IMG/VR virus record: IMGVR_UViG_3300020159_001718
Location: 1-38,891 of that record
Direction: 5' to 3' (one strand)
DNA length: 38,891 bases
Origin: a virus
Below are positions 18,801 to 38,891 of this stretch, one piece after another; within the stretch, counting starts at the first letter, position 1, and the number at the start of each line of letters is the position of its first letter. The translations under genes were made by a program, and so were the position numbers. A model generated the notes under the pieces. That model was not told the origin of the DNA and made no database searches. It was given only the letters and a program-made list of their open reading frames with translations.

Positions 18801-21800
18801 AACCTTGGTAAAGAATCAGCTGATTATCAAATTTACGAAAACTGGGCAGTACAACGTGCAGTATACGGCGCCAATGCTAACCGTAGCTTCTTTGAATTAA
18901 GACTCAATCGTGCATTGCTTAACTCCAACCCTAGCCTGGTACAAGTAACATTGCCTGAGCAGGTGAGTCAAGCAGACCAAACAATTCTATTGAGTAATGT
19001 TTGGAAACAAAGCTACAAGTTAACTTCTCCTGACATTTTACCTACAACCACTGTGACAGTTACTGACACTGCATTACCAAGCGCTGGATATGTAAATCTT
19101 GATGACACAGACATCACAGTGTTTAATTTAACAGACCCAACAAGTTTAGAAGCCAGCATTGACTCTGTTGAAGTTGGGGCAACTGTATGGGTAGCCAAAG
19201 TTAACAATTATGATTGGAACATCTATCGTTGCGTTCAAGTTCCAGGTTATATTGATCATGCTTGTGACAACCTAGACGGAACCTCAATTGTTTACTTTAC
19301 TAAAGAACATGGATTAGTACCAGGGAACCAAGTAATCATTAGATTCTTGGATACAAACATCGATGGTGTATACCGTATTCTAACAACACCAACAGTGAAC
19401 TCTGTTACAATTGCCTACACATTCACTGGCAAGGACACAGCAATCAATGGCGTAGGTATTGGTTTCACATTGCAAACTCAACGTGTTGCCCAGGCTAGTG
19501 ATATTCTTGACTTGCCATATGCTAACGATATTCAAACTGGTGCTAAGGTTTGGGTAGACAACAACGGCAACGGACAATGGCAGGTATTAGAAAAACAAAA
19601 TCCGTTTAGCGATGTTGTTGAATTAGCACCAGTCCTATTAGCTGCTGATGAACAGTACGGGCAAAGTGTTACACAAGCAAAAAATCGTTTAGCTGCATTG
19701 GTTGGTAGCCCATTGTATGGCTCTGGTCAAGGAGCAGTATATGTGTACGTTAAAAACTATAGTGATCAGTATACTCCTGTTAGTCCATTAGCTGAGGGTG
19801 ATGCTATCCTTACTCTTGATGTTACTGGTACAAAAGGCTATGGTAATGCAGTTGACTTTGGTAGCCAAACCTGGGCAGTAGCTGGTGCTAGCAAGAGCCA
19901 GGATTCAACCGGCTTGATTGATGATGTTGGGTATGCCGCAGTAATCTATCGTGATCCACGTCTTGGCGAACCAGGAGTTAACCCTTATGATCAGTCACAA
20001 TTATTAGTGTCACCCGAAGCGTCGACTGCAGGTGAATTTGGTTACAGTGTGGCCATGAGTGACGACGAGCGTTGGATGTATATTGGTGCACCTGGCGTAA
20101 ACAAAGTATATGCATACGGTCGCGTTGATTGGCAAAATCAACTTGTTAGAATACCTGCTGATGGGGCAACTCAAAGTTATAGCGTTGGAAGTACTATACA
20201 AGTTGGCAACCAATATCAATTAAAAGTTACGTTGAATGGACAGCTACAGACTATAACAACAGACTATACAGTTAATGCAGGCCTCAACACAGTTACATTT
20301 ACATCTACTCCAGGTGTTGTGGCTGCAACTGCTATTGTTGCCACTAACACCTATACAATTTTATCTGCTGGTACTACAGACTTTACATTAATTGGTGCCG
20401 CTAATAATAATGTTGGCACAGTGTTTGTGGCAACAGCGGTAGGCACAGGAACTGGTACAGTATTGTTTGAAACTATAGTTGAAGTTTCTAGATATAACGC
20501 TATTCAAATTCCTTACAATTCAGCAACCTATAACTTGTCAGATGGTACTGACAATGCTGGAAACCGTGTTGGTATATTTACTGCACAAAACATATATTCG
20601 TTCAGTATCAAAGTATCTAGCCCCGGAGACTTTATTAACAAGCTATTGCGCCCTGGAATTGATTATACATTTGCAGGCACCACAATTAACTTTGGCGCTA
20701 CTACATTTGGATCTGATGATGTTGTTACTGTTACATCAGAAGGATACTTTGAATTAGCAAGTACATTAACTGTGGGCGGCCTTGCAGCAGGTGCTAGATT
20801 TGGTCACAGCGTTTCTTGTACAACAGACGGTCGTCAAGTTATTGTTGGTTGCCGTAATGAAACAGTAGATACACAGGTTGAAGCTGGCAGCGTATACGTG
20901 TTTGATCGTAACGTTCAACGTTTCATCTACGGTGAAGATCCAAGTTCTACAACCTTTACTGTGCTAGGAACAGTTACATCACCGGTTAGTGTAATTGTTA
21001 ACAATCAATTCTTGATCAACGAAACTGATAGTATTGTTAATGCAGACAATACATTTGCAGTAAATGGTAACAACATCACTATCCAAGATCCGTTAGCTGT
21101 AGGTGATGTAATTGAGATTGAAACAAACCAGTTTACACAAGTTCAGCGTGTGACACAAAACACTGTGGCAGAGTTTGTGAACTTTGGTCAAGCTATTGAT
21201 ATTTGTAGTTATAATTGCAGTCTTTACATTGGTGTGCCACAAGATAGCACACAAGCATACAAGGCAGGTGCAGTTGAGCGTGATGTAAACCAAAGTCGCG
21301 TGTATGGTACAATTACTGCTACCATTGCTAGTCCTACACTTACTGTTGGACAAACTATCAGGGTTAACAATATTGATGTTGCAGTTCCTGGTGCTGGAAC
21401 AGTTGCAAGTCTTGCAACAGCAATCAACGCCACAGTGCCAAACGTAACTGCGTCTGTGTCTACCACTGGATTTTTGACTATTGCTGTTACTAACTCTGGC
21501 GCAGCACCAGCTGGTAACAAACTGCAAGTTGCACCTGGTAGTTCAACTGGCAGTACAGTGTTTACTGCACTTGGCTTTGAAACTTTTGCTTACACACAAA
21601 GTATCTATAGTCCTTATCCTGTAGATTATGCTGCATTTGGTTACAGCGTTAACATTGATACGTCTGCAGAAAATTTAGTAGTTGGTGCGCCCAAAGGAAC
21701 ACTATATTTGTTCACTGTGTTTGATGATGGCACAACAGACTGGGACGGAAACAGCACAATCTTCTTCAGCACAATTTTGCAGAGTGGTGCAGTGTACACA

Positions 21801-24800
21801 TATGATTACTTGCCTAGTGCCAGTGACAATGTGCTAACCCCAGGCAAGTTTGTTTTTGGTCTGCAGATCAGCGATAGTCATGTTAACCAGTACGACAACT
21901 ACGGTGCTTCTGTAAACTACACTGACGGTGTGTTGATGATCGGAGGCCCAGGAAACGATGCATTGTTTGACGGCAGTACTATCCAGAACAATTACGGTCG
22001 TGTGTATGTGTTTGAAAACCCAGATCGTATTCCTGCATGGACAGTAATTCATCAACAACAACCAGTAGTGGATATTCGTTTGTTGAACTCAGTATTCACA
22101 TACGATCGAATCACTGGTGCAAGAACAGAACAGTTTGACTTCTTTGATCCGCTACAAGGCAAAATCCTAGGAGCTGCACGTCAGAACATTGACTACCTTG
22201 GTGCAATTGATCCTGCAAGTTATAATGTAGGACCAATCAACAACAACAACACCACATGGACAGCAGAACATGTTGGTCAAATTTGGTGGGATATTAGCAC
22301 AGTACGCTTTATTGATCCAAACCAAGACGACATTGTGTATGCAAGTCGTCGTTGGGGTCAGTTGTTCCCTGGTAGTTCAGTTGATATCTATCAATGGATA
22401 CAGTCAGATGTGCCTCCTGCAAATTACACAGGTGTTGGAATACCATTGAATACTGTATCTTATACAGTAAGCAGTCGTCTGAGCATTGATGGAACTTTTA
22501 ACACTTATTACTATTTCTGGGTTCGTGGAATTGCTAGTGTTAGTACACAACAAGGCAAGACACTGAGTGCAGACACAGTAAGTCGTTATATTGAATCTCC
22601 AAAGAGCAGCGGTATTGCCTATATTGCACCAATCAACGCCAGTACTATTGCAATTTACAATGCAACTGATATTATCCAGGCAGAAGATACTATTATCAAC
22701 ATTGAGTTTGATCGTGAATACACAACTGACAACGTTCACGTTGAGTACGAGTTAATTGTACAAGACAAAGCAGACGGCTTCTTGAGCAAAAACTTGTACC
22801 GCAAACTACAAGATTCATTCTGCGGTGTTGACACTGCTGGTAACTTAGTTCCAGATCCCAACTTGAATGCCGCTGAGAGATATGGTGTTCAATTCCGTCC
22901 ACGCCAGTCAATGTTTGTGGATCGCTTTGCGGCATTAAAGAACTATATTCAACGTACTAATGCAGTGTTTGCACTGTATCCAATTGTTGAAAATCGTAGT
23001 TTTGTGCTTTTGAACTCTAGCGATCCTGAGCCTTCGTCAACAGAAATTGTCAACGGAGTTACTCAAACTAATTGGAACTTACGGGTAGCTAACTTAGAAA
23101 TCTTAAGCTATCAAAATATTGATGCAGTAGCACTAGGGTACAAATACCTAGTGGCATCCGACAGCTCAAACAACGGCTTATGGGCCATCTATGAGGTAGA
23201 GCTAGCACAAAACTCGTTAGTAGGCGCACGTGAGTTAGTATTAGTTAAAGTACAAAATTACGATACTAAAAAGTACTGGAGCTATATTAACTGGTACTTG
23301 CCTGGCTACAACCCTAGCACCAAAGTTATTGCTGAAGTGCCAACCTATAGTTCGTTGGCTACTTTAAGTGTTGTAGTAGGTTCGAGCGTTCGTGTTACTT
23401 CTAATGCACAAGGTAAGTTTGAAATTTACTTGCTTGAAGCACTTGACACATGGATTCGTGTTGGGTTAGAGGATGGCACAATTGCAATCAGTGCTGAAAT
23501 TTACGACTATGCATTAGGACGATTTGGCTTTGACGTTGAAGTTTTTGATGCACAATACTTTGACCAAGAGCCTGTGATTGAAACACGAAAAATTATTCAA
23601 GCAATCAATGAAGAAATTTTTATTGATGAGTTGGCTCTAGAGCGCAACAAATTGTTAACACTGATGTTTAACTTTGTGTTGAGTGAATTCTCTGCCCCTG
23701 AGTGGTTAATTAAGACTTCGTTGATTGATGTTGATCACAACATTCGTAATCTAGAACCGTTCCAAAACTATCGTCAGGATAACCAGGAGTTCGTACTAGA
23801 CTACATCCAAGAAGTCAAACCATATCATGTACAGATACGTGAGTTCAACTTGTTGTACAATGGTCAAGATCAATATCCTGGCAGTATGACAGACTTTGAT
23901 CTACCAGCATACTACAACACAAGTTTGCCTGCACCGCAATATACAAGTCCAATCTTGACACCGTATGCACATAGTACATACCAGGCTGATAACACAATTA
24001 GTGATGCGTCAAGCGATGCGTTGATTTGGCAAGCATGGCCTTACTCACAATGGTATGGCAATTACTTGTTGAGTTTAGAAAGTATTACTGTTGTCAATGG
24101 TGGTTCTGGATTTACTGATGCACCAACCGTGACCATTGTTGGCGATGCAACCACTCCTGCGACTGCAACTGCATTCTTAAACAGCCAAGGACAAGTGACA
24201 TTTGTCACCGTGACAAATCCTGGATCTGGCTACGGCGCAACTCCTACAATTGTGTTTGAGGGCGGAAACGGTGTTAACGCACAAGCGTATCCTGTGATGA
24301 TTGGTAAAGGATATGGACAAACAATTAATGGTACTGGAACACCCACTGAACTGTATTACAATCTAGCACGTAGTTTCCGTACAGTTATTAGATACGATCG
24401 ATTTGACTTTGTTAGTCAAGTTACTGATTGGCAAGCAAATGTACACTATGAGAACGGCACACTAGTAAGATATGACAATCGTGTTTGGAGTGCTTCAAGC
24501 ACAGACTCATCTGCAGTCGAAAGTCCAACGTTTGATTTAGAAAACTGGACTTTGGTTCCTGCTGGCGACCTGTCTGCAGCCGATCGTATCACTGGTTATT
24601 ATACACCGGGTGTTAACGAACCTGGTAATGAATTACCGTTGCTAATTGACGGTATCGCCTATCCTGGTGTACAAGTATATGGCACAAGTTTTGGGTCAGT
24701 TGAAGCAATTGATGCGGAATATGCTAGTAGCTTTACAGATGTATACCTAGGGACTCGCCCGACTGATATCAACGTTAGCGGCGGCGAATTTATTGGACCA

Positions 24801-27908: not shown

Positions 27909-29654
27909 ATGGCATATACAATTAATTTAACCGACGGTAACGTTTTTGCAACGATTGCAGACGGTACAGTAAACACCAGCAGTAGCATGACGCTGGTAGG
28001 TAAAAACTACGCTGGCTACGGTGAATTTTTGGATGAAAACTTTATCCACTTGCTGGAAAATGCAGCTAATACTACAGCGCCAGCCGCACCGTTAACAGGT
28101 CAATTGTGGTGGGATAAAACTAACACACTGCTAAAAGTTTATAACGGTACTATTTGGAAAACAATTAGTGCTGCCACTTCCAGTGCTACACAACCAACCA
28201 GTAACGTAACAGGCGACTTGTGGTATGATAGTACCAACCAGCAGTTGAAAGTATACACAGGTTCTAGCTTTATTGTTGTTGGTCCAGCATTTACTAGTTC
28301 AGAAGGTACAGCTGGTGCAATTCCTGGCACAGTTAACGATTCTGGCGGCACACCACACTATATTACCAGTCTATATGTAAACAATCAACAAATTGCCATT
28401 GTCAGTGTTGACAGTGCATTTACTCCATCTGCTCCAACAAGCGTAAATTTTCCAACAATCTATCCAGGTATTACTGTAACCAAGAGTGGTAGCGGGGTGC
28501 ATGCTGGTAACGTGATTAACACTGGTAACTTAACATTAGGCGCTGGTGGTGCAACTACTGTTACATTAACTAGCACAGGCGGCAACGTGGCCGGTTATGT
28601 AAGTGCAAGTGGTAACGTGACCAGCGGCAATTTGTTATCAGGCGGTTTGGCATCCATCACAGGCAACATCACTGGTGGCAATTTGTTATCAGGCGGTTTG
28701 GCATCCATCACAGGCAACATCACTGGTGGTAACTTAGTAACTGGTGGCGCAATTAGTGCTACTGGTACTGCCAATATAACAGGCAATATCAACGGCGGCA
28801 ACTTACGCACAGTTGGGCAGGTAACTGCAACCGGCAACATCACTGGTGGTAATGTTATTTCTAGTGCGTTGGTATCAGGTGCGTCTGTTACAGCAACAGG
28901 CAACGTAACAGGTGGTAACGTAGTCACAGGCGGCTTAGTAACTGCAACTGGTAACATTATCAGTTCTGCCAACGTTTCAGGTACGTACTTCCTGGGCAAC
29001 GGTAGCCAGCTTAGTGGATTAAATTTAGCAGTTACAGTTACGAAATTCGTCAACGGCACGTCAGAAGGTAACATTGGCGCATCTGGTGGTAACATCAACT
29101 TTAACGTAGGTGGAACATCAAACGTTGTTGTGATGAGCACAACTGGTTTGACTGCAACAGGTATCAGCGTACCTAGCATTACCAAAACTGGTTCTAACGC
29201 AGTTGGTAACATTGGATCAAGCTCAAACTACTTTAACCAAGTGTTTGCCACAGCAACCACAGCACTGTATGCTGACGTTGCAGAACGCTTCCATGCAGAC
29301 GAAATTCTAGAACCTGGTACAGTTGTTGAACTAGGTGGCGTGAACGAAATTACCAAATCTCGTTCAGATTTGAGCGAAACTGTGTTTGGTGTGATAAGTA
29401 CAAGACCAGCGTTTACCATGAACGGTGGAGCTGGCGAAAGCGATACTCACCCAGCTGTGGCTATGACAGGTCGCGTTCCAGTCATGGTTACGGGTATAAT
29501 TAACAAAGGCGACAGACTAGTTAGTGCTGGCAATGGTATTGCCCGTGCTGCTCGCCCTGGTGAAGCAACTTCGTTTAACGTAATTGGACGTTCTTTGGTA
29601 GCTAAAACTACAGAAGAAATTGGAACAGTTGAAGCCATTGTAAGTACCAAATAA
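27909..29654 (+). CDS. Tail fibre protein with repeat shaft and C-terminal maturation-type domain
   Basis: The protein has 581 residues. The N-terminal part has two copies of a G-x-LW(W/Y)D-x-TN-x-x-LKVY-x-G motif (W67-W68-D69 and W105-Y106-D107), common in the N-terminal region of marine phage fibres. The middle (about 200-360) is a shaft of short repeats such as SGGLASITGNITGGN and TGGLVTATGN, typical of beta-helical fibre stems. The C-terminal 130 residues start at about 'ALYADVAERFHADEILEPGT' (A455-E459 core) and continue with 'VFGVIST' and 'MTGRVPVMVTG'. This domain resembles the self-processing or chaperone-like ends of other phage fibres. I cannot point to a cleavage site. The protein probably binds the host surface. 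Confidence 0.75.
   Translation: MAYTINLTDGNVFATIADGTVNTSSSMTLVGKNYAGYGEFLDENFIHLLENAANTTAPAAPLTGQLWWDKTNTLLKVYNGTIWKTISAATSSATQPTSNVTGDLWYDSTNQQLKVYTGSSFIVVGPAFTSSEGTAGAIPGTVNDSGGTPHYITSLYVNNQQIAIVSVDSAFTPSAPTSVNFPTIYPGITVTKSGSGVHAGNVINTGNLTLGAGGATTVTLTSTGGNVAGYVSASGNVTSGNLLSGGLASITGNITGGNLLSGGLASITGNITGGNLVTGGAISATGTANITGNINGGNLRTVGQVTATGNITGGNVISSALVSGASVTATGNVTGGNVVTGGLVTATGNIISSANVSGTYFLGNGSQLSGLNLAVTVTKFVNGTSEGNIGASGGNINFNVGGTSNVVVMSTTGLTATGISVPSITKTGSNAVGNIGSSSNYFNQVFATATTALYADVAERFHADEILEPGTVVELGGVNEITKSRSDLSETVFGVISTRPAFTMNGGAGESDTHPAVAMTGRVPVMVTGIINKGDRLVSAGNGIARAARPGEATSFNVIGRSLVAKTTEEIGTVEAIVSTK
28626..28727 (+). repeat. Perfect 51-bp tandem duplication in the fibre shaft
   Basis: Two adjacent 51-bp units (28626-28676 and 28677-28727) are identical at every base and encode GNLLSGGLASITGNITG twice. 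The other shaft repeats nearby are diverged. Perfect identity, including third codon positions, means very recent duplication, so the shaft length is probably changing in this phage population. Confidence 0.95.
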
Positions 29655-29667
29655 TTAGGAAGATAGT

Positions 29668-30636
29668 ATGACATACACAAGCGGTGGCTTAATTCAAGCC
29701 ACAGACTATAATGGATTTGTAAGCACAAATGCTAGTGCCAACGTCAATGACGTTTGGGCAACAGGATCCAGTGACAAAGGCTGGGGTCAGAGCGCAATTG
29801 CAACTGTTTCTGCTACTAACACCATTACAGCCACACAATGGGCTAGCTTGGTCAATACTTTGGCCAGCATGGGTAGCCAAACTGGTACCGCAATTACAGC
29901 AAGAACTGCTCCTGTGACAGGTGGCACAATCGGTATTCTCTCTGCACTAAACACTGATCTTACAAACATTACAACGAATAGATTAAACGCAGTAGCCCAA
30001 GGCAGTCAATTCACCGGCTGGTCTGGTACTAACTCTAAAACAGCTACCACATCAGGTGCTACATGGACTATTACATTTACCAACACAGTAACATTTGCAA
30101 GTGCAGCGGCTGCACGTTATTTCTTCAATGCAGGCGGAACTATCAAATTGGATGTGAGTAAAACAGCAACTGGCAACACCGGCGATCCAGAATGGAATGA
30201 CTTGGCCAACACACTCTGCGGTGATATCTTTTTTACTGCTGGTACAGCTACTCAAACTATTGCAGGTACTGCTTATACGGGCACAACCAAAATTGGCGGA
30301 ACAGGCGTTCCTAACACTCTAGCTACCACAACTGGGTTTTATGATTTGACTGCAGGAGCTGCTGCCACTATCATCTACAAGCAGTTTGCTGATACTGCTC
30401 CGTACACATCCAACTTCATTCAACACAGTGTGGCACTCAACGCAGGCTCAACTGCATTGACATTTACAACACTTTGGTCAGCCAGTGACGGCGATCCAAT
30501 CACAGGCGGCACAGCAAGTTCAGGCGCAACACCAGGCACAGCACCAACTACTATCTGTACATATTTCCCACCTTCATCAACTTATCTAACAACAGCCTCT
30601 TGGGGCGCACCAACTGTAGCTGCCACAACAGCTTGA
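29668..30636 (+). CDS. Tail fibre/collar-type structural protein
   Basis: The protein has 322 residues and is rich in Thr, Ala and Gly with very few charged residues. The N-terminal half has 'GGLIQATDYNGFVSTNASAN', 'DKGWGQ' and 'ITATQWASLVNTLASMGSQT', a pattern I recognise from fibre or collar proteins of marine T4-like phages. The C-terminal half is beta-rich with 'FASAAAARYFFNAGGTIKLD' and a terminal Pro/Ser/Thr segment. It probably contributes to the fibre tip or collar, but no T4 gene can be named. AGGAAG at 29657-29662 is a good ribosome-binding site. The gene is followed directly by a hairpin terminator, so it is the last gene of the structural transcription unit. Confidence 0.6.
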   Translation: MTYTSGGLIQATDYNGFVSTNASANVNDVWATGSSDKGWGQSAIATVSATNTITATQWASLVNTLASMGSQTGTAITARTAPVTGGTIGILSALNTDLTNITTNRLNAVAQGSQFTGWSGTNSKTATTSGATWTITFTNTVTFASAAAARYFFNAGGTIKLDVSKTATGNTGDPEWNDLANTLCGDIFFTAGTATQTIAGTAYTGTTKIGGTGVPNTLATTTGFYDLTAGAAATIIYKQFADTAPYTSNFIQHSVALNAGSTALTFTTLWSASDGDPITGGTASSGATPGTAPTTICTYFPPSSTYLTTASWGAPTVAATTA

Positions 30637-30639
30637 TCA

Positions 30640-30665
30640 AAAGGGGTAATTGCCCCTTTACTTTT
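30640..30665 (+). terminator. Rho-independent terminator ending the structural operon
   Basis: A perfect 7-bp stem, AAAGGGG/CCCCTTT (30640-30646 with 30653-30659) with a 6-nt loop, is followed by a T-rich tail (ACTTTTC). It begins 4 bp after the stop of the 322-aa gene. Confidence 0.85.
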
Positions 30666-30685
30666 CTCTAAAATTCCCGTATAAT
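30657..30685 (+). promoter_or_regulatory. Sigma70-like promoter of the glycosyltransferase/radical SAM operon
   Basis: TTTACT (30657-30662) and a perfect TATAAT (30680-30685) are separated by 17 bp. The -35 element overlaps the terminator arm. Transcription would begin near 30692, at or next to the ATG at 30691, and no Shine-Dalgarno is visible, so the first gene may be read from a leaderless message. The box is not the TATAAATA late type, so timing may differ from that of the structural genes. Confidence 0.6.
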
Positions 30686-30690
30686 ATGTT

Positions 30691-30999
30691 ATGGATACTG
30701 AAACTTTGATTGCACATTCGCGAGCCCGTTTTGATCATCAAACAGCACGACGATTACTAAAAGAAAAATACGAAGCACGTATGCTATTTGCTTATGCAGG
30801 TGGTATGTGGCGTGCTGGACCAGAACTACTGACTGTACTAACTGTATGCCCGGATAGGGAATCGGCAGTTATTCTTGACTTGTATGAGAATCCAATACGG
30901 ATCAATGTTGGAGATCTTGAAATGGCAGCACAACAACGCTGGCAAGAGCAAATGAACAGTTGGCTTGCAGAGCATGAAAAACTGAGCAAGAAACGATGA
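30691..30999 (+). CDS. Small protein of unknown function, first gene of the accessory operon
   Basis: This 102-residue protein is Arg/Glu/Leu-rich in its first 35 residues ('ARRLLKEKYEARMLFAYAGG') and again at the C-terminus ('QRWQEQMNSWLAEHEKLSKK'). A central strand region, 'ELLTVLTVCPDRESAVILDL', lies between them. It has no signal peptide, membrane segment or enzyme motif. I recognise the type as a small hypothetical protein of T4-like marine phages but not its function. The ATG is at the predicted transcription start with no Shine-Dalgarno. The stop overlaps the next ATG by four bases (ATGA), so it is translationally coupled to a glycosyltransferase-like gene. Confidence 0.65.
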   Translation: MDTETLIAHSRARFDHQTARRLLKEKYEARMLFAYAGGMWRAGPELLTVLTVCPDRESAVILDLYENPIRINVGDLEMAAQQRWQEQMNSWLAEHEKLSKKR

Positions 31000-31799
31000 C
31001 TCGTGGAGTATTGATCTTTGCCTTTAATAATGAACATACTGACTACCTTGCAATGGCTGCGTGGAGTGCTGAGAACATTCGTAAGCACCTCGGGATACCA
31101 GTTGCGGTCGTCACAGATGTCGGGGACGGAAGCAGAAATAAAGCGTTTGACCGAGTCATTACAGCTACACCTGTTTCAGGAGGAACACGTTACTTTGAGG
31201 ATTACGAAAAAACTGTTACATGGCACAACGCAGGTAGAACTGACGCTTACGCACTTTCACCCTGGGACGAAACTCTAGTACTTGATGCAGATTATGTTGT
31301 GGCCAGTTCGGATCTTAACAAACTATGGCACAGTACAGCAGACTTCATGTGCCACAAAACTGCCTGGGACATGAGCACAGGCGAAGACCTTGTGGGCCTA
31401 AACAGTTACGGACAATATGATATGCCCATGTGGTGGGCAACTGTAATGATGTTTCGCAGAAGCAACACAGCGCAGTACATTTTTGACTGCATGAACATGG
31501 TCAAAAACAACTGGGAACACTATAGAAACTTGTATGGTATCAGCAAGAGCACATATCGCAATGACTTTGCACTGAGCATTGCACTAGGTATTGTTTCGGG
31601 ACACACAGGTGTAGTAGATGAAATCCCTTGGCGACTAGCGTCCTTGTTGCCCAAAGACAAACTGATCAAGTACGACCACAACATGTACGAAATACACAGC
31701 ATAGACTCTACAGGCACAGATAGATATACTATGTTTGCAGGCATGGACTTTCATGCCATGGGCAAAAAGCATCTAGGAGATATAATTGCGGCCAGTTGA
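30996..31799 (+). CDS. GT-A-type glycosyltransferase-like protein 1
   Basis: The protein has 267 residues and a nucleotide-sugar-transferase-like pattern. It begins 'RGVLIFAFNNEHTDYLAMAA', has 'IPVAVVTDV' (about residues 34-42), and then 'ETLVLDADYVVASSDLNKLW', where D97-A-D99 is a DxD motif for a metal-bound nucleotide sugar. 'PMWWATVMMFRRSN' and 'STYRNDFALSIALGI' follow, as in GT8- or GT2-like GT-A folds. A C-terminal part with 'FHAMGKKHL' may supply a metal-binding His. No membrane segment is visible, so the protein is probably cytoplasmic. The start is ATGA-coupled to the previous gene. The sugar and acceptor are unknown. Confidence 0.6.
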   Translation: MTRGVLIFAFNNEHTDYLAMAAWSAENIRKHLGIPVAVVTDVGDGSRNKAFDRVITATPVSGGTRYFEDYEKTVTWHNAGRTDAYALSPWDETLVLDADYVVASSDLNKLWHSTADFMCHKTAWDMSTGEDLVGLNSYGQYDMPMWWATVMMFRRSNTAQYIFDCMNMVKNNWEHYRNLYGISKSTYRNDFALSIALGIVSGHTGVVDEIPWRLASLLPKDKLIKYDHNMYEIHSIDSTGTDRYTMFAGMDFHAMGKKHLGDIIAAS

Positions 31800-32559
31800 A
31801 GAACAAGGTTACATCATACCTGCATTTAACACGGGTACAGTTGACTATGTTGACTGTGCTAGAACCTTGGCCAAGACACTGCTCCTGCATGTGCCGGATG
31901 CACGAGTATGCTTGTTGACCAACGACAAGTATGCAACAGACCACAATCTATTTGCCTACACGCACATAGTAGAAGACATTGACATACAAAATCCTTTTGC
32001 CAACGATGCATTGGTGTTTTCACAAACACCGTTTCGAGAAACTATCAAACTAGAAGCAGACATGATGATTGCTAGTGATATATCCCACTGGTGGACCATG
32101 TTTAGACATCGTGACGTTGTGATCAGCACAGGATGCAGAGACTGGAAAGACAATGTCAGCACTGCACGTAACTATCGCAAGGTATTTGATGATAACTCGT
32201 TGCCGGACGTGTACAACGCTGTTACATACTGGCGCTTGAGTAACACAGCAAAAGAATTCTTTACCTTGGTGCGCAGTATCTTTGCCAACTGGGTAGAATA
32301 CCGGAAGCTGATCAAGTTTAGCCCGGACACACCGGATACTGACCTAGTGTATGCAATGTCTGCACAGATCCTAGGGCCAGAAACAGTAACATTACCATTT
32401 GCCAGCTACCCAAAGATTGTGCATATGAAACGGCACATAGCAGGAACAGCCACAGAAGACTGGACTCGAGAACTAGTCTGGGAACTGGATCCATTGCGTA
32501 TACAAACACTTGCACAATGGGGAGCTTTCCATTTTAATGTAAAGGACTGGCAACGATGA
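31786..32559 (+). CDS. GT-A-type glycosyltransferase-like protein 2, TTG start
   Basis: The protein has 257 residues and is a diverged paralogue of the preceding gene product. It starts 'GYIIPAFNTGTVDYVDCART', has 'VCLLTNDKY', then 'FRETIKLEADMMIASDISHW' with E90-A-D92 at the DxD position, and 'YNAVTYWRLSNTAKEFF' where protein 1 has 'MWWATVMMFRRSNTAQYIF'. The C-terminus has 'YPKIVHMKRHI'. The start is TTG at 31786 with AGGAGA (31775-31780) five bases upstream; no in-frame ATG exists near the N-terminus. It overlaps the previous gene by 14 bp. The ExD in place of DxD could mean altered metal or donor use or reduced activity. Confidence 0.55.
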   Translation: MRPVEEQGYIIPAFNTGTVDYVDCARTLAKTLLLHVPDARVCLLTNDKYATDHNLFAYTHIVEDIDIQNPFANDALVFSQTPFRETIKLEADMMIASDISHWWTMFRHRDVVISTGCRDWKDNVSTARNYRKVFDDNSLPDVYNAVTYWRLSNTAKEFFTLVRSIFANWVEYRKLIKFSPDTPDTDLVYAMSAQILGPETVTLPFASYPKIVHMKRHIAGTATEDWTRELVWELDPLRIQTLAQWGAFHFNVKDWQR

Positions 32560-32882
32560 CACCAGAAGAATTTTGGAACACACTGGCGGTCATGCCAGAA
32601 TCCCAGACGGTGTTTTACAGACTGTATCATGAAAACGGTGTGCCATTATTCTACAGCATGGAAGATCGGCCTGGTACATATATTGAACTGGATCAAGAAA
32701 CCTATGCTCGCAGCGCCAGCAATGTGCGTGTGCGAGACGGAAAGCTAGTTGAACTAACTTGGCAAACCTCCCAGAAGATTGTGCCCAGCACACACGGAAC
32801 ACAGTGTCACAACAAAGACGTGGCAATAGTAGTAGAACAAAACGGAACATATTGGAGCAAACAAATATATGAAACAAGTTGA
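32556..32882 (+). CDS. Small protein of unknown function between two glycosyltransferase-like genes
   Basis: The protein has 108 residues. It reads 'MTPEEFWNTLAVMPESQTVF' and then 'RLYHENGVPLFYSMEDRPGT', followed by 'YIELDQETYARSASNVRVRD' and 'GKLVEL', and ends with 'DVAIVVEQNGTYWSKQIYE'. The pattern suggests a small alpha/beta protein. I have seen similar hypotheticals in fibre-adjacent regions of marine T4-like phages, but I do not know the function. It is joined to its neighbours by a 4-bp (ATGA) and a 14-bp overlap, so it is made together with the glycosyltransferases and may be a partner or substrate-handling protein. Confidence 0.6.
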   Translation: MTPEEFWNTLAVMPESQTVFYRLYHENGVPLFYSMEDRPGTYIELDQETYARSASNVRVRDGKLVELTWQTSQKIVPSTHGTQCHNKDVAIVVEQNGTYWSKQIYETS

Positions 32883-33792
32883 TATTGCAGATTTAGACTG
32901 CATTTTTTTAAGTTATGATGAACCTAACAAAGAAGAACATTGGGTTAAGATTAAAAATATGGTGCCTTGGGCCCAAAGGGTGGACGGTGTCAAAGGGTCT
33001 GACGCGGCACATAAAGCAGCCGCGCAATTATCAACCACTGAACGATTTATCCTTATTGACGGCGACAACATTCCCAACCCAACGTTTTTTAATCAAACGT
33101 TACATTTTCCTGAACCGAACTACGAGAATGCTGTGTTCCGGTGGAGGGCTCGCAACCATATCAACGGACTAATGTACGGCAACGGCGGCTTGAGCTCATG
33201 GACTCGAGAGTTTGTTATGAACATGCAAACACACGAAGCCACTGACGGTCGTGCAGAAACTGAAGTTGAGTTCTGCTTTGATCCGTTATACTGGGCCATG
33301 CATGACTGCTACTCAACAACATACCCTAATGGTAGTGATTTCCAAGCATGGCGTGCAGGATTCCGCGAAGGTGTAAAGATGTGCTTGCAACGTGGTCGCA
33401 AGCCCACAGTGGAAGAATTCAAGCAACAGGTGCTTAGAAACATTGACAACCTCACAATCTGGCACAACATCGGCACAGATGTAGACTACGGCGAATGGGC
33501 TATTGCAGGTGCTCGCCAAGGCACATACATGACCATGCTTACCAACTGGGACCACCGTCTGGTGCAGAACTTTGATGCACTTGCAGAACTGTGGGAGAGT
33601 GTTAAGAACTCGCAGCCTCGACTGTTGAGCAATCAACTGGGACCAGAGCTGGGAACACAGTTAGACTTGCCCATGGCCATCTTAGAAACAGAACAGTCGG
33701 CGTTCTTCAAGCACCACTACAATTCACAGTGGCGTAACCAAGGTGTTATGGTTCGTGAGATTGATGTTATTCGCAAGGCAGAAGGTTGGTAA
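32869..33792 (+). CDS. Glycosyltransferase-like protein 3 (IDGDN type)
   Basis: The protein has 307 residues. The N-terminal part reads 'DIADLDCIFLSYDEPNKEEH', then 'VPWAQRVDGVKG' and 'STTERFILIDGDNIPNPTFF', where D64-G-D66 is the DxD-type nucleotide-sugar site of a GT-A/GT2-like fold. It then has 'NAVFRWRARNHINGLMYGNG', a likely donor-binding loop. The C-terminal third, 'IAGARQGTYMTMLTNWDHRL', is unlike the two earlier glycosyltransferase-like proteins. Such proteins occur in T4-like marine phages and are usually annotated only as glycosyltransferases. The start overlaps the previous gene by 14 bp; the end touches the next start (TAATG). The substrate is unknown. Confidence 0.55.
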   Translation: MKQVDIADLDCIFLSYDEPNKEEHWVKIKNMVPWAQRVDGVKGSDAAHKAAAQLSTTERFILIDGDNIPNPTFFNQTLHFPEPNYENAVFRWRARNHINGLMYGNGGLSSWTREFVMNMQTHEATDGRAETEVEFCFDPLYWAMHDCYSTTYPNGSDFQAWRAGFREGVKMCLQRGRKPTVEEFKQQVLRNIDNLTIWHNIGTDVDYGEWAIAGARQGTYMTMLTNWDHRLVQNFDALAELWESVKNSQPRLLSNQLGPELGTQLDLPMAILETEQSAFFKHHYNSQWRNQGVMVREIDVIRKAEGW

Positions 33793-35180
33793 TGAGCAAA
33801 GGCGACCAAAGCAAGTTCATGAGCTCTGCAGAGCAAATGCGTAGTGAGCTAGGGCACGGACTTTGTTTGGCCAAATGGAAGCAGGTTAGTTTGCACTTGC
33901 CAACCGGGCTCAACAACTCATGCTACCATCCTCCTTTACACCAGATTGACGCCAGTGTACTCAAAGACAATCCAGGCGCACTACACAACACCGCACACAA
34001 AAAAGAACAGCGTCGGATCATGTTGCGTAACGAGCGTCCTGGTGAATGCTCCTACTGCTGGAACATGGAAGACCTGGGCAAACTAAGTGATCGTCATTAT
34101 CGTTCTGGAGAAGCCTGGGCAGCAATAGATTTAGAAAAGATTAAAAACTCAACTGGAGATGAAGATGATGTTGTACCCTCATACGTGGAAGTCAATTTCA
34201 ACAACGCTTGTAACCTGCGCTGCTCTTACTGTAGCCCTCAGTTTAGTAGCTCATGGGCTGATGAGGTTAATCGGCATGGAGGATACCCGACTAGCCGTGT
34301 TCATAATGATCCCACTCACTTTACCGGTAATCGCAAACCTATCCCAGCTAGAGAGAGTAATCCTTATGTGGACGCATTTTGGGAGTGGTGGCCCACACTA
34401 TACCCTGAGCTAGAACACTTTAGAATGACTGGCGGGGAACCGCTCATGGACAAGAACACTTATAGAGTGTTTGACTATGTGTTAGCTAATCCCAGCCCCA
34501 AGTTGCACTTAAACGTCACAAGTAACTTCTCAGTTGAAGATAGTCTTTTTGAAAAGTACATATCCTACACAAAGCTACTTTGTAATACCAACATAGAACA
34601 CTTTATGCAGTATGTGAGCTTTGATTCGGGAAATCTAGCCCAGGCTGAATACATAAGGCATGGCTGCAACGGGACAAAAGTTATTGAAAATGCAGAACGC
34701 TTCTTAACGGAAGTGCCCACACGCAACAGTCTAACGTTTATTATCACAATGAACAATCTCAGCGTTACAGGGCTGTTGCCCATGATGGAGATGATTCAAA
34801 GCATGCGCCGCAAGCACAGCACAACCTATCAACGTGTGTGGTTTGATACTCCTGTACTGCGTGAACCAGCTTGGCAATCCTTGCAAATACTGCCCGAAAG
34901 CTATGCACAGCAACTGGAAAAGACTCGCGACTACATGCTGGCCAACATGGTCACAGATGCTAATCCTTTGCATGGATTTAAAGACTACGAAGTACAACGC
35001 CTAGAGCGTGATATTGCATGGATGCGTGAAGGACAGTCAAAAGATAATTCAGTGGCAAAAGCAGACTTTTATCGTTTCTTTTTGGAGCATGATAAAAGAC
35101 GCGGAACAGATTTTCCAGCAACATTCCCAGAAATGAAATCATGGTGGACAGAATGCGAGTATCATGCTCGGCAAGCATAA
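33792..35180 (+). CDS. Radical SAM protein with N-terminal twitch-like domain, 1
   Basis: The protein has 462 residues. ATG at 33792, overlapping the upstream TAA, is a better start than a TTG six bases earlier. The core [4Fe-4S] site C140-x3-C144-x2-C147 sits in 'NNACNLRCSYC', and G214-G215-E216-P217 is the SAM-binding GGEP motif. An N-terminal domain carries C25 (LCLAKW), C44 (SCYHPP) and C86/C89 (CSYCW), which would form an auxiliary cluster placed before the core as in N-terminal-twitch radical SAM proteins. Another shared motif is 'AEYIRHG'. The enzyme would use SAM and iron-sulfur clusters for radical chemistry on an unknown substrate. It lies between two glycosyltransferase-like genes. 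Confidence 0.8.
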   Translation: MSKGDQSKFMSSAEQMRSELGHGLCLAKWKQVSLHLPTGLNNSCYHPPLHQIDASVLKDNPGALHNTAHKKEQRRIMLRNERPGECSYCWNMEDLGKLSDRHYRSGEAWAAIDLEKIKNSTGDEDDVVPSYVEVNFNNACNLRCSYCSPQFSSSWADEVNRHGGYPTSRVHNDPTHFTGNRKPIPARESNPYVDAFWEWWPTLYPELEHFRMTGGEPLMDKNTYRVFDYVLANPSPKLHLNVTSNFSVEDSLFEKYISYTKLLCNTNIEHFMQYVSFDSGNLAQAEYIRHGCNGTKVIENAERFLTEVPTRNSLTFIITMNNLSVTGLLPMMEMIQSMRRKHSTTYQRVWFDTPVLREPAWQSLQILPESYAQQLEKTRDYMLANMVTDANPLHGFKDYEVQRLERDIAWMREGQSKDNSVAKADFYRFFLEHDKRRGTDFPATFPEMKSWWTECEYHARQA

Positions 35181-36270
35181 AATCATTATCGATGAATGGG
35201 CAGAAGTAGTAGACTTACTGGACCCTTATGCTGATGGAGAATTCTGGACCTGGGCAGATGTCAACTTTGATCCTGCTTGTGTATACATTGTGGGCAGAGT
35301 TGTATTAAAAGACAACTGGCAAGAGATAACAGATCTTGCCACCCGATATCCTGGTCGTATTGTGTTCTGCAATCCTGCAGAAGGTTCAGAAACAATACTA
35401 CTGCAACTCCGGCGCTTGCGTATTGAACCGCATGTGCGTGACGGTCGTATTCTGTTGTTAACATCCGGAGACCTAGAACCAGGCTGGAATCAATTGAGCA
35501 CAGATTGTTACTTTACCAACATAGTAGACTACACAGAAAACAAATCTGCACAGCTACAGGCAGCACTGGACTATAAAGATCGTCGTCCATATGAGTTTCT
35601 TTTCTTAAATGGCCGCCTGCGCCCGCATCGCAAGTATCTAATAGACCATCTAAGAGCACAGGGCTTGTTGACACATGCCCTGTGGAGCAACCTGGGTAGT
35701 CAGGTTGAAATGGCATTTACGTCTGTGTTGAACACAGGCCTGTCAGAACCCGTACACTTGCTGCCAGAGCAGTACGAAATACCACGTGCTGTACCCAATT
35801 TAAATCGAGAGTACACAGGGTTCGCCAAGCATGAATTGTTTGAGAACACCTGGGGCGATGCTATCATAAATCACAAGTGCTACACAGACACATGGTTTAG
35901 TTTAGTAACAGAAACTATATTTGATTACCCGCACTCGTTTAGAACAGAAAAGATCTACAAGCCCATTATAATGGCACATCCTTTTGTGGTTGCTGCCAAC
36001 CGTGGCTACTTGAAAGATCTACGCAACGCAGGATTCCAAACGTTTGATAGCATAATAGATGAAAGCTACGATCAAATTGATTGTCCACTGACCAGGATAG
36101 AGCGTATAATAGATACAGTACGGTATATTAGTCGCGGCGGCGCTGAACATTTCTGGACGGCCTCCCGTGATATATGTAAATATAATCAACAACATCTCCA
36201 GGAGTACAATCGCGAACAACGTACTCAATTGCCCACTCAATTAGAACAATACTTAAATGAACGATCTTGA
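35164..36270 (+). CDS. GT10/exostosin-like glycosyltransferase
   Basis: The protein has 368 residues. The C-terminal half contains 'SFRTEKIYKPIIMAHPFVVA' (about residues 258-277) and then 'DLRNAGFQTFDSIIDESYD'. This combination is typical of fucosyltransferase- or exostosin-like GT-B enzymes, where E262 and K263 lie in the nucleotide-sugar-binding site. The middle has 'EFLFLNGRLRPHRKYLIDHL', the usual start of the second domain. The N-terminal 130 residues ('PACVYIVGRVVLKDNW', 'RIVFCNPAE') form a diverged first domain. It overlaps the previous radical SAM gene by 17 bp and the next by 14 bp, so it is embedded in the radical SAM cluster. The sugar is unknown; fucose is not implied. Confidence 0.6.
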   Translation: MLGKHKIIIDEWAEVVDLLDPYADGEFWTWADVNFDPACVYIVGRVVLKDNWQEITDLATRYPGRIVFCNPAEGSETILLQLRRLRIEPHVRDGRILLLTSGDLEPGWNQLSTDCYFTNIVDYTENKSAQLQAALDYKDRRPYEFLFLNGRLRPHRKYLIDHLRAQGLLTHALWSNLGSQVEMAFTSVLNTGLSEPVHLLPEQYEIPRAVPNLNREYTGFAKHELFENTWGDAIINHKCYTDTWFSLVTETIFDYPHSFRTEKIYKPIIMAHPFVVAANRGYLKDLRNAGFQTFDSIIDESYDQIDCPLTRIERIIDTVRYISRGGAEHFWTASRDICKYNQQHLQEYNREQRTQLPTQLEQYLNERS

Positions 36271-37588
36271 ATTTAAACACACAGTACTAGATCCACTGAG
36301 TGAATCATTTTGTGCAGCAAAGTGGTATAATGCTACCATTTGGCTTGGTAGCGGCATGAGCACCAGCTGCCACCACCCGCCTGCTCATTTGGTGGACAAA
36401 GATAAAGTCCTTATCAACCCTAAGCTGCTGCACAATACTCCAGAAAAGAAAGCTGATCGAGAGCTGATGCTAAAGGGCGAACGCCCAGCCGGCTGCGAAT
36501 ACTGCTGGAAGATTGAGGACATGGGCAAGGATTCTATCAGTGACCGTGTGTACAAATCAAAAATATATCCTATAAAGGCCCTGCAAGATGCTGCTGATTC
36601 TTCACCCGCAGAAGACGTTGATCTCCGTACACTGGAAATTGCTTTTGACCGTACTTGTCAGTTTGCTTGCAGCTATTGCAACCCAGCTTTCAGTACAACA
36701 TGGGTTAATGATATTCGACGTAACGGACCCTATACTGGCCTGGTTAGTGATGGTAGGAACCACTTCACTCACACTCATGAGTCTGCTCAATTGTTCAAAG
36801 TCACAGAGTCTAATCCATACGTGGATGCATTTTTTGCATGGTGGGAAACGGATCTACATCGTTCACTCCAGGAACTCAGAATCACAGGAGGAGAGCCCCT
36901 CATGTCTCATCACACCTGGAAGCTCATTGAATGGTTTAAGACGAATAAAGGCAAGAGTACTACACGCCTGGCTATTAATAGTAACCTTGGATCCCAGGTT
37001 GATATTGACAGGCTTCTTGAAAACACAAAAGACATAGATGTAGATCTTTACACTAGCAACGAAGCGGTGGGATCACAAGCAGAATACATACGTGATGGTT
37101 TAGTATGGGTGGACTGGGCTGACAATGTAGAACGCTTGTTGGCCAGTGGTAATTTCCGTGGCATTCATGTGATGGCAACAATCAATGCACTGTGTCTAGA
37201 CAGCTTGGATCAGTTGTTGGCGTGCATACTACAGTGGAAAATCAAGTACAGCCGCGATGCCATCAGCTTTACACTTAATATTCTACGCTTTCCGTCATTC
37301 CAAAGCCCGTTGATACTGCCCGATAACTTGCGTACAGCGTACATGTTAAAACTAAGAACTTGGTTGCTGAACAACAGCGGGTCAGAATTCCTGCATGAGC
37401 ACGAAGTTAATCATTTACAGCGTCTGGTAGACTATTTGGATGTGGTAAAGACACCGCACTCTGACGCATTTGAAATGCCCAAGCTACACAACGACTTTAA
37501 ACAGTTCTTTAGTCAGTATGATTCTCGTAGATCAAAAGACTTTGGCGCTGTGTTTCCCGAATTAAAAGAATGGTACGATTCATTATGA
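36257..37588 (+). CDS. Radical SAM protein with N-terminal twitch-like domain, 2
   Basis: The protein has 443 residues and is a clear paralogue of the 33792-35180 product. The core site is C134-x3-C138-x2-C141 in 'DRTCQFACSYC', and G211-G212-E213-P214 is the GGEP motif. The N-terminal cysteines are C19 (FCAAKW), C38 (SCHHPP) and C80/C83 (CEYCW), with exactly the same spacing as in the first copy. 'AEYIRDG' is also shared. The C-terminal part differs, so the substrates may differ. It overlaps the GT10-like gene by 14 bp and the next radical SAM gene by 4 bp (ATGA), so the three are co-translated. Confidence 0.8.
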   Translation: MNDLEFKHTVLDPLSESFCAAKWYNATIWLGSGMSTSCHHPPAHLVDKDKVLINPKLLHNTPEKKADRELMLKGERPAGCEYCWKIEDMGKDSISDRVYKSKIYPIKALQDAADSSPAEDVDLRTLEIAFDRTCQFACSYCNPAFSTTWVNDIRRNGPYTGLVSDGRNHFTHTHESAQLFKVTESNPYVDAFFAWWETDLHRSLQELRITGGEPLMSHHTWKLIEWFKTNKGKSTTRLAINSNLGSQVDIDRLLENTKDIDVDLYTSNEAVGSQAEYIRDGLVWVDWADNVERLLASGNFRGIHVMATINALCLDSLDQLLACILQWKIKYSRDAISFTLNILRFPSFQSPLILPDNLRTAYMLKLRTWLLNNSGSEFLHEHEVNHLQRLVDYLDVVKTPHSDAFEMPKLHNDFKQFFSQYDSRRSKDFGAVFPELKEWYDSL

Positions 37589-38891
37589 ATATACAACAAC
37601 AGCTAGAACAAATTAAACAACAGTACCAGGTGCTGGACATTGTTGATTTAGCTATGTGGACAGACGACTATGAAGCCAGTACAAAATGGCTTACTCGTCG
37701 ACTACAAGCAGCACACAAACTAGAATATGCTCCAGAGCAACGCATAGTGTTCCTGCACACTCGCGACTACTATGTGGAAGGCAAAGACACAGGCCTGATT
37801 CTGCGTAACTTGCAAATTGCGCTAAACGAAGTGGACATTAGTAATTGTTTTGCCACGGTGATTAGTACCAACCCAGACTTGGAAAAAGAAGTAGCCGTAC
37901 TAGCTGAAATAAGTGCAGATCCTGTGCCTATTAACTTTGTGAGTGTAGCAGATGATTATCAACGTAACGAATTGGCTCAGCATCCCTACAGTAGAAAAGA
38001 ACAGTATCAGTACGGTAGTGCTAATCCTATAAAGATTAATTTAAATGATGTCAGCGAAAAAGAACGCTTTATGCTGAGTGAAAGCAAGAGCTTCTGCATG
38101 TACCCTTGGATGCACATGCATGTTTGGCCTACAGGACAAGCATATCCTTGCTGTCATGCCAAGCCTAATCCTTCGTTCGGTAATGCACATAGTCAGCCCA
38201 TGAAAGAAATTTGGAACAGCAAAAACTTCAAGCAACTCAGAGTAGATATGCTGAATGATCAGCCCAATCCCAGCTGTAGCAAGTGTTACGAGCAAGAAGA
38301 TTCTGGTTTCTTTTCGGGACGTCAATCAGCCAACAAGCATCACGGACACCATATTGAACGTACACAAGCTACAGAAGCTGACGGCACATATAATGATTTT
38401 GAAATGACTTACTGGGATATTCGTTTCAGTAATCTATGTAATCTACGTTGTAGATCATGTGGACATATCTTTAGTTCACAGTGGTATCAAGATCAAGCCA
38501 AACTAGCAGGCGGCGACTGGAAAAAGCTCAACAAGCCGCTAATCTATGCTGGCCGTACAGAAACAGACATGTGGGAACAACTAGAGCCCCATTTAGACTA
38601 TGTAGAACAGATCTACTTTGCAGGCGGGGAACCGCTGTTGATGGAAGAACACTATCATATTCTGGAAGAACTGGTAAAACGCAAACGTTTTGATGTTAGA
38701 CTAATATACAACACAAACTTCACACACACACAGTTAAAAGATAAATCAGTGTTTGATTACTGGAATCAATTTGACTCTGTGGCAGTGGGTGCAAGTTTAG
38801 ACGCTTCAGGCGCACGTGGTGAGTACATACGCAAAGGTACAGACTGGGCAGTTGTTGAACAGAACCGTAGAGACATGTTGAAGATTTGTCC
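37585..38891 (+). CDS. Radical SAM protein with N-terminal twitch domain, 3, 3' end missing
   Basis: The frame is open to the window edge; 435 codons are visible. A 170-residue N-terminal extension ('QRIVFLHTRDYYVEGKDTGL', 'ISNCFATVISTNPDLEKEV') comes first. The canonical twitch domain follows: C171 in 'FCMYPWMHMHVWPTG', C189-C190 in 'YPCCHAK', 'MKEIWNSKNFKQLRVDMLND' and C231/C234 in 'CSKCYEQEDSG'. The radical SAM core then has C285-x3-C289-x2-C292 in 'SNLCNLRCRSC', G347-G348-E349-P350, and 'GEYIRKGTDW'. This is the most typical member of the three and fits the NCBI-type 'twitch domain-containing radical SAM protein' description. It is ATGA-coupled to the previous gene. Confidence 0.8.
   Translation, partial: MNIQQQLEQIKQQYQVLDIVDLAMWTDDYEASTKWLTRRLQAAHKLEYAPEQRIVFLHTRDYYVEGKDTGLILRNLQIALNEVDISNCFATVISTNPDLEKEVAVLAEISADPVPINFVSVADDYQRNELAQHPYSRKEQYQYGSANPIKINLNDVSEKERFMLSESKSFCMYPWMHMHVWPTGQAYPCCHAKPNPSFGNAHSQPMKEIWNSKNFKQLRVDMLNDQPNPSCSKCYEQEDSGFFSGRQSANKHHGHHIERTQATEADGTYNDFEMTYWDIRFSNLCNLRCRSCGHIFSSQWYQDQAKLAGGDWKKLNKPLIYAGRTETDMWEQLEPHLDYVEQIYFAGGEPLLMEEHYHILEELVKRKRFDVRLIYNTNFTHTQLKDKSVFDYWNQFDSVAVGASLDASGARGEYIRKGTDWAVVEQNRRDMLKIC

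Follow-up and report, generated by a model that had tools for sequence, protein, structure and literature searches.

A conserved gene block behind the fibre genes of a RaK2-related phage lineage combines glycosyltransferases with twitch radical SAM enzymes and may modify a fibre protein

What would a phage make with a run of glycosyltransferase and radical S-adenosylmethionine (radical SAM) genes placed directly behind its fibre genes? This question is raised by a viral DNA stretch of 38,891 nucleotides (IMG/VR record IMGVR_UViG_3300020159_001718, positions 1 to 38,891; the whole of it is referred to here as the window), the 3' end of which consists of nine plus-strand genes running from position 30691 to the end of the contig with overlaps of 4–20 bases, directly behind two fibre-like genes at 27909-29654 (fib1) and 29668-30636 (fib2). 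An earlier note, made from the sequence of the window, had described nine consecutive overlapping genes behind the fibre genes, and all of them are present at that place and on that strand. We propose, at about even confidence, that this block is a cytoplasmic glycosylation and tailoring locus for the threonine- and serine-rich fibre protein fib2. The features concerned are as follows:

29668..30636, + strand: fib2, fibre-like protein rich in Thr and Ser; candidate substrate of the block
30640..30659, + strand: intrinsic-terminator-like hairpin at the end of the structural operon, AAAGGGGTAATTGCCCCTTT-ACTTTT
30657..30685, + strand: sigma-70-like promoter, TTTACT-N17-TATAAT, conserved among relatives
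30691..30999, + strand: g1, 102 residues, without family match; place kept in 68/70 relatives
30996..31799, + strand: GTa, GT8-like glycosyltransferase with an invariant DxD (alignment, AlphaFold, fold searches)
31786..32559, + strand: GTb, paralogue of GTa with a LEAD (ExD) motif and a TTG start (alignment, hhalign)
32556..32882, + strand: g4, 108 residues, family matches all below cut-off; present in 60/61 relatives with room
32869..33792, + strand: GTc, GT-A-like by motif (IDGDN; alignment); present in 58/58 relatives with room
33786..35180, + strand: rS1, twitch radical SAM enzyme with an in-frame ATG at 33792 (NF033640, E 2e-89)
35164..36270, + strand: GTd, GT-B (exostosin/GT4-like) glycosyltransferase, accessory (alignment, structure prediction, fold searches)
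36257..37588, + strand: rS2, twitch radical SAM enzyme (NF033640, E 3e-84)
37570..38891, + strand: rS3, twitch radical SAM enzyme truncated where the contig stops (NF033640, E 9e-93, model positions 1-267)

Conservation of the block was assessed in related sequences found with several anchors. A scan with rS1 yielded 333 related stretches, and among the best 80 of these the same gene order was found with g1 in 76, GTa in 77, GTb in 78, GTc in 79, rS2 in 80 and GTd in 70. Since this sample had been chosen by rS1 itself, the survey was repeated with an upstream tail gene as anchor, using the best 80 of at least 595 relatives and counting only loci with room for the gene in question; fib2 was then present in 71/72, g1 in 68/70, GTa in 65/67, GTb in 62/63, g4 in 60/61 and GTc in 58/58, so that the block is carried by 97–100% of the best-matching relatives. 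In a further set, anchored on a diverged GTc, GTa and GTb precede GTc in 46/46 loci with room and fib2 stands before them in 45/46. The ratio of nonsynonymous to synonymous substitution rates (dN/dS) lies between 0.01 and 0.25 in nearly all gene-by-pair comparisons, with a maximum of 0.39 in g4, and the block is under strong purifying selection. The earlier note had named the independent occurrence of these genes in related phages, and the loss of catalytic residues from most of them on alignment, as observations that would speak against a joint pathway; for the glycosyltransferase core neither applies, co-occurrence being near-universal and the motifs conserved.

The radical SAM enzymes rS1, rS2 and rS3 match the NCBIfam model NF033640 (N_Twi_rSAM) with 300, 284 and 311 bits, all above its curated cut-off of 170 bits. 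In an alignment of 22 enzymes drawn from five gene slots, the CxxxCxxC motif, the GGEP motif and four N-terminal cysteines (C27, C46, C88 and C91) are invariant, in agreement with the four-cysteine N-terminal domains noted earlier. These five conserved slots are rS1, rS2, rS3, rS5 and rS6, and their CxxxCxxC and GGEP motifs are intact in 80/80, 75/75, 72/72, 59/59 and 57/57 orthologues (80/80 for rS1 and 75/75 for rS2). The N_Twi_rSAM family is widespread, and its NCBIfam entry gives a domain layout and no reaction. The rS3 gene is full-length in relatives. In the window it carries an N-terminal extension of about 150–170 residues (37570-38080), orthologues of the G001 and G002 type being without it; open frames of 562–574 residues occupy the rS3 slot in several other contigs, and the extension may recur.

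For the glycosyltransferases, searches of Pfam, PHROG and NCBIfam returned no glycosyltransferase family match with GTa or GTb, and profile searches of GTa, GTb, GTc and GTd against PDB sequences returned no match either, so that folds were assigned from structure prediction, for GTa and GTd only. GTa was predicted by AlphaFold with a predicted local distance difference test (pLDDT) score of 93.5 as a confident GT-A fold, with glycogenin as the best Foldseek hit (E 1e-7) and VIA Z scores of 17.0 to glycogenin and 14.5 to LgtC; its D97-x-D99 is invariant in the alignment. GTb is homologous to GTa (hhalign probability 99.4), E90-x-D92 replacing the DxD, and would share the GT8-type fold through this homology. 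Both are termed GT8-like and not filed as GT8, because no curated glycosyltransferase profile matches them. GTd was predicted as a GT-B fold (pLDDT 88.6), with EXT2 as the best Foldseek hit (E 7e-4); by VIA the GT4-like enzymes come first, led by SenB (Z 12.8), with a GT10 fucosyltransferase (Z 11.1) and EXT1-EXT2 close behind. GTd is missing from some sub-groups of relatives. Of the glycosyltransferase set as first described, three GT-A-like enzymes and one GT10/exostosin-like, GTa and GTb thus hold as GT8-like and GTd as GT-B, its nearest family differing between Foldseek and VIA, while GTc remains a GT-A-like candidate by motif. The two small proteins g1 and g4 gave no family match above cut-off in Pfam, PHROG or NCBIfam.

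The interval between fib2 and g1 holds a hairpin ending in a short T run, and a promoter of the form TTTACT-N17-TATAAT. In this single sequence neither match is above chance, yet a terminator and a promoter stand at the same place in most of the relatives read (as TTGACA...TATAAT in the L030/L041/L055/L072 group), and because this arrangement recurs, the block probably has its own promoter, as the earlier note had claimed. Strong sigma-70-like promoters are enriched before the genes of two full contigs, G001 and G002 (17 and 19 instead of the roughly 2 expected). With one mismatch allowed, a T4-type late promoter (TATAAATA) occurs 22 times against 11 in one of two genomes and 30 times against 16 in the other, only a weak enrichment, and the timing of expression is therefore not readable from promoters.

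Upstream, the gene at 12801-27107 encodes a baseplate/virion protein of 4768 residues that takes up more than a third of the window and matches virion and baseplate-connector PHROGs, so that the window has the layout of an island of the host-recognition-cluster type, with fibre, glycosyltransferase and radical SAM genes following a large baseplate protein. Downstream, in full contigs (320 kb and 347 kb), the block runs past the point at which the window ends and continues with rS3, rS5, rS6, a 361-residue protein and then sugar enzymes. These include a NodU/TobZ-type carbamoyltransferase (Pfam, 1e-48), which is followed by another radical SAM gene, and, in inspected genomes, an amidinotransferase homologous to AGAT and StrB1; also present are a further two GTd-like enzymes, a repeat protein whose end is GTc-like, a DegT aminotransferase identified by sequence, an epimerase and thyX, the last at the far end in two genomes. 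Variable slots with further glycosyltransferases sit between the conserved genes, and whole contigs of 320–364 kb contain 13–21 NF033640 matches each, most of them above the curated cut-off. The carbamoyltransferase, amidinotransferase, epimerase and DegT aminotransferase would fit a tailored amino-sugar glycan. The earlier view of the nine genes as a complete pathway thus stands as regards a coherent, selected and fibre-tied unit and fails as regards completeness, the locus continuing beyond the window with more radical SAM genes, the carbamoyltransferase and other sugar enzymes. Two proteins of this downstream region were recorded besides: p361 (L089:8092-9174), the strongly conserved 361-residue protein found after rS6 in most loci with 65% mean column identity, and a 1132-residue protein (L089:16337-19732) in which some ten repeats (DYSWxPxPxxPPYIYVFGNQ...GATExKYM) are combined with a C-terminus resembling GTc, and which has no Pfam or PHROG match, occurs in G002 in a 943-residue version and has shorter homologues in L153 and L154.

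Comparison of more distant loci shows that the locus is built of two modules, a fixed core (fib2-g1-GTa-GTb-g4-GTc) and an exchangeable radical SAM suite. The core and all five slots, here ordered rS1-rS2-rS3-rS6-rS5, recur in a second phage group, represented by the metagenome-assembled contigs L151-L153 and the viral contigs L298-L337. Distant groups (L338, L342, L354, L365 and L370) keep fib2-g1-GTa-GTb-GTc with one or two radical SAM genes only, the products of which reach no more than 41% identity to any of the slots. A tree of 93 enzymes shows one clade per slot, each containing both phage groups and a chromosomal copy from the Bacteriovoracaceae UBA6144, with support of 99–100 for four slots and 92 for rS5, this being a quick tree with long branches. 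On the UBA6144 chromosome (L156), next to obgE and the L21 gene, eight twitch radical SAM genes form one cluster (L156:2824-14820) that covers all five phage slots and lacks glycosyltransferases. Because the slot clades span both phage groups and this bacterial cluster, the radical SAM suite is old, can be separated from the glycosyltransferases and probably works as a set. The picture of a single set given by the earlier note was accordingly right for the glycosyltransferase core, which is fixed, and not for the radical SAM suite, which is swapped between phage groups and stands alone on a bacterial chromosome.

The core itself also occurs in a bacterium. On a Bdellovibrionota chromosome (L208:11504-15915, G076:C21), after rnhB-rplS-trmD-rimM-pheS-pheT, lies fib2-g1-GTa-GTb-x-GTc in phage order, followed by radical SAM genes, with identities of 31% for fib2 (E 7e-14), 28% for g1 (E 1e-9), 31% for GTa, 30% for GTb and 43% for GTc (E 2e-82); x is a 163-residue protein between GTb and GTc, there is no fib1 upstream and the contig ends soon after the block. 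A baseplate query gave no match in the genome carrying it, which is weak evidence against a prophage. The layout is closest to that of the phage loci L342, L343 and L357. Since fib2 and the block are found there without fib1, the fibre gene fib2 has travelled with the enzymes and fib1 has not. Genes matching NF033640 (E 1e-40) were found in 63/129 genomes of the class to which L156 belongs, with up to 12 in each, and in 0/14 control genomes. Ten of the radical SAM regions contain three epimerases, three GT2 enzymes and two carbamoyltransferases, against two GT1-type enzymes in ten control regions (by Pfam), these being small counts with two of the regions near-copies in gene content. Homologues of GTc adjoin radical SAM genes, within a few kilobases, in at least five genomes of this class, on Bdellovibrionota chromosomes, and a Bacteroidetes relative of the radical SAM enzymes adjoins, as assigned by reading, a carbamoyltransferase and a polysaccharide-type ABC permease.

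We read fib2 as the probable substrate of the block from the position of the core directly behind it in nearly all relatives and from three further observations: the L208 copy just described; its composition, with 22% threonine and 8% serine (30% together) against 16–24% threonine plus serine in the other structural proteins tested; and the lack of any transmembrane-like stretch in the inspected cassette proteins (maximum 19-residue Kyte-Doolittle mean 1.49). The glycosylation and tailoring reading draws as well on the predicted folds of GTa and GTd, on the low dN/dS values and on the epimerase, GT2 and carbamoyltransferase genes beside bacterial relatives of the radical SAM enzymes. In the cytoplasm, GTa and GTb would attach first sugars to hydroxyl residues of fib2 and extend them, possibly helped by g1 and g4 as chaperones or adaptors; the glycan would be built by GTc and the exchangeable glycosyltransferases, and chemical alteration of it would be the task of the radical SAM enzymes and the carbamoyltransferase, joined in some genomes by the amidinotransferase. 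A fibre decorated in this manner would affect adsorption, stability or recognition. It is conceivable, and put forward here tentatively, that the result is a radical-SAM-tailored glycoprotein fibre, formed by five separate twitch radical SAM reactions together with carbamoylation and, in some genomes, amidination, with a suite shared with Bacteriovoracia and a glycan or glycopeptide chemistry that is not known from any virion.

Several observations weigh against a fibre-glycosylation locus. Through its conserved sigma-70-like promoter, the block is uncoupled from the structural operon upstream, which would also suit early remodelling of the host; the GT-A-like assignment of GTc is made by motif only, this IDGDN motif being kept in 69/78 copies and the protein not being alignable to GTa or GTb; the bacterial block with fib2 is one case in 129 genomes of the class, where adjacency could be hitchhiking; and, because the suite occurs without glycosyltransferases on a bacterial chromosome, the radical SAM enzymes may have a non-glycan substrate. 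The main rival explanation, which we regard as rather unlikely, is that the enzymes alter host lipopolysaccharide or capsule, blocking superinfection or freeing progeny. Such a role was preferred by the authors of the pelagimyophage study for the GT8 genes of an analogous cluster (PMC7029224), and it would agree with the independent promoter and with the carbamoyltransferase and permease beside the Bacteroidetes relative; it is opposed by the fact that none of the cassette proteins inspected is a flippase, polymerase, ligase or membrane glycosyltransferase, by the near-universal presence of the block in a diverse lineage, unlike a host-specific accessory, and by the fibre gene that travels with the enzymes.

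A role in maturation of a peptide, in the manner of ribosomally synthesised and post-translationally modified peptides, with the radical SAM enzymes cross-linking, epimerising or otherwise modifying residues of the fibre or of a small protein and the glycosyltransferases forming a separate layer, seems improbable. SPASM/twitch radical SAM enzymes commonly act on peptides, five separately conserved slots suggest five distinct reactions and the UBA6144 suite has no glycosyltransferases, but no short leader-bearing precursor is evident, g1 and g4 being small and conserved without a recognised precursor signature, and the radical SAM genes adjoin sugar enzymes in several Bdellovibrionota and Bacteroidetes loci. 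Hypermodification of phage DNA bases by the glycosyltransferases and radical SAM enzymes is more improbable still, to the point that we hardly expect it: DNA is a frequent target of phage glycosyltransferases, the fold of GTd resembles that of T4 beta-glucosyltransferase (VIA Z 11.0) and two genomes have thyX at the far end of the locus, but likeness to the T4 enzyme is common to many GT-B enzymes, the block stands behind fibre and not replication genes with a fibre protein as its tightest partner, and GT8-like, carbamoyl- and amidino-transferring enzymes better fit carbohydrate or protein targets.

The claim that no phage pathway of such composition had been described was too strong, since related cases are found in PMC7029224, PMC5332604 and PMC12390700. 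In pelagimyophages, a host-recognition cluster placed between VrlC and gp14 holds fibres, glycosyltransferases dominated by GT8 and, in some of these phages, radical SAM cassettes; the authors favour modification of the host O-chain (PMC7029224). It is alike in being a variable island after a large baseplate protein, with fibres and several glycosyltransferases of which GT8 is the commonest; compared by description, it differs from the locus studied here in that the latter has a fixed fib2-g1-GTa-GTb-g4-GTc order across lineages and individually conserved rS1, rS2, rS3, rS5 and rS6. The present phage is also nearer to RaK2-type jumbo myoviruses, to which its baseplate wedge protein is 31–38% identical. 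In mycobacteriophages, phage-encoded glycosyltransferases add glycans to structural proteins of the same phage, reportedly at capsid and tail-tube C-termini (Freeman et al. 2023, as cited in PMC12619734), and, unlike here, the summary given in PMC12619734 includes no radical SAM enzymes, carbamoyltransferases or amidinotransferases. TARA_ERS488813_N000010 has 12 radical SAM genes (PMC5332604) and Aeromonas phage 332-Vera has 8, within its structural gene cluster (PMC12390700); for neither is a fixed glycosyltransferase block described, and because 332-Vera belongs to the Chimallinviridae its likeness may be convergent. The jumbo isolates Vibrio phages K566 and K567 have several clustered radical SAM genes, 19–27% identical to those studied here, and the stretch examined yielded no detectable homologue of any of the four glycosyltransferases GTa to GTd. 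The corresponding stretch L131 (OZ196521.1 144844-185848), with clustered radical SAM genes and adjacent unknowns, offers a possible isolate model. The UBA6144 cluster shares homologues of all five slots in the same clades and differs in having no glycosyltransferases and no phage genes nearby. Moraphages (PMC12619734), at first a candidate for the same lineage, were dropped because that paper mentions no radical SAM genes. Among 50,697 phage records there was no match to rS1, GTa, g1, GTd, the repeat-glycosyltransferase protein or fib2, only rS5 and a marine-type rS2 matched isolate phages (weakly, in Vibrio and marine phages), and the block was found in no isolate searched. The kind of locus is therefore already known, and for the fixed core, the five-slot suite, the bacterial copies and the tie to one fibre we found no description in the open-access papers searched.

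Five radical SAM slots here have a defined genetic partner, a fibre protein together with the glycosyltransferases that go with it, and they occur on bacterial chromosomes as well as in environmental phages numbering in the hundreds, which makes the question of what N_Twi_rSAM enzymes act upon testable. If the fibre is indeed modified, this would be an unusually complex pathway of post-translational modification for a virion, and it would bear on adsorption and on the avoidance of recognition in jumbo phages.

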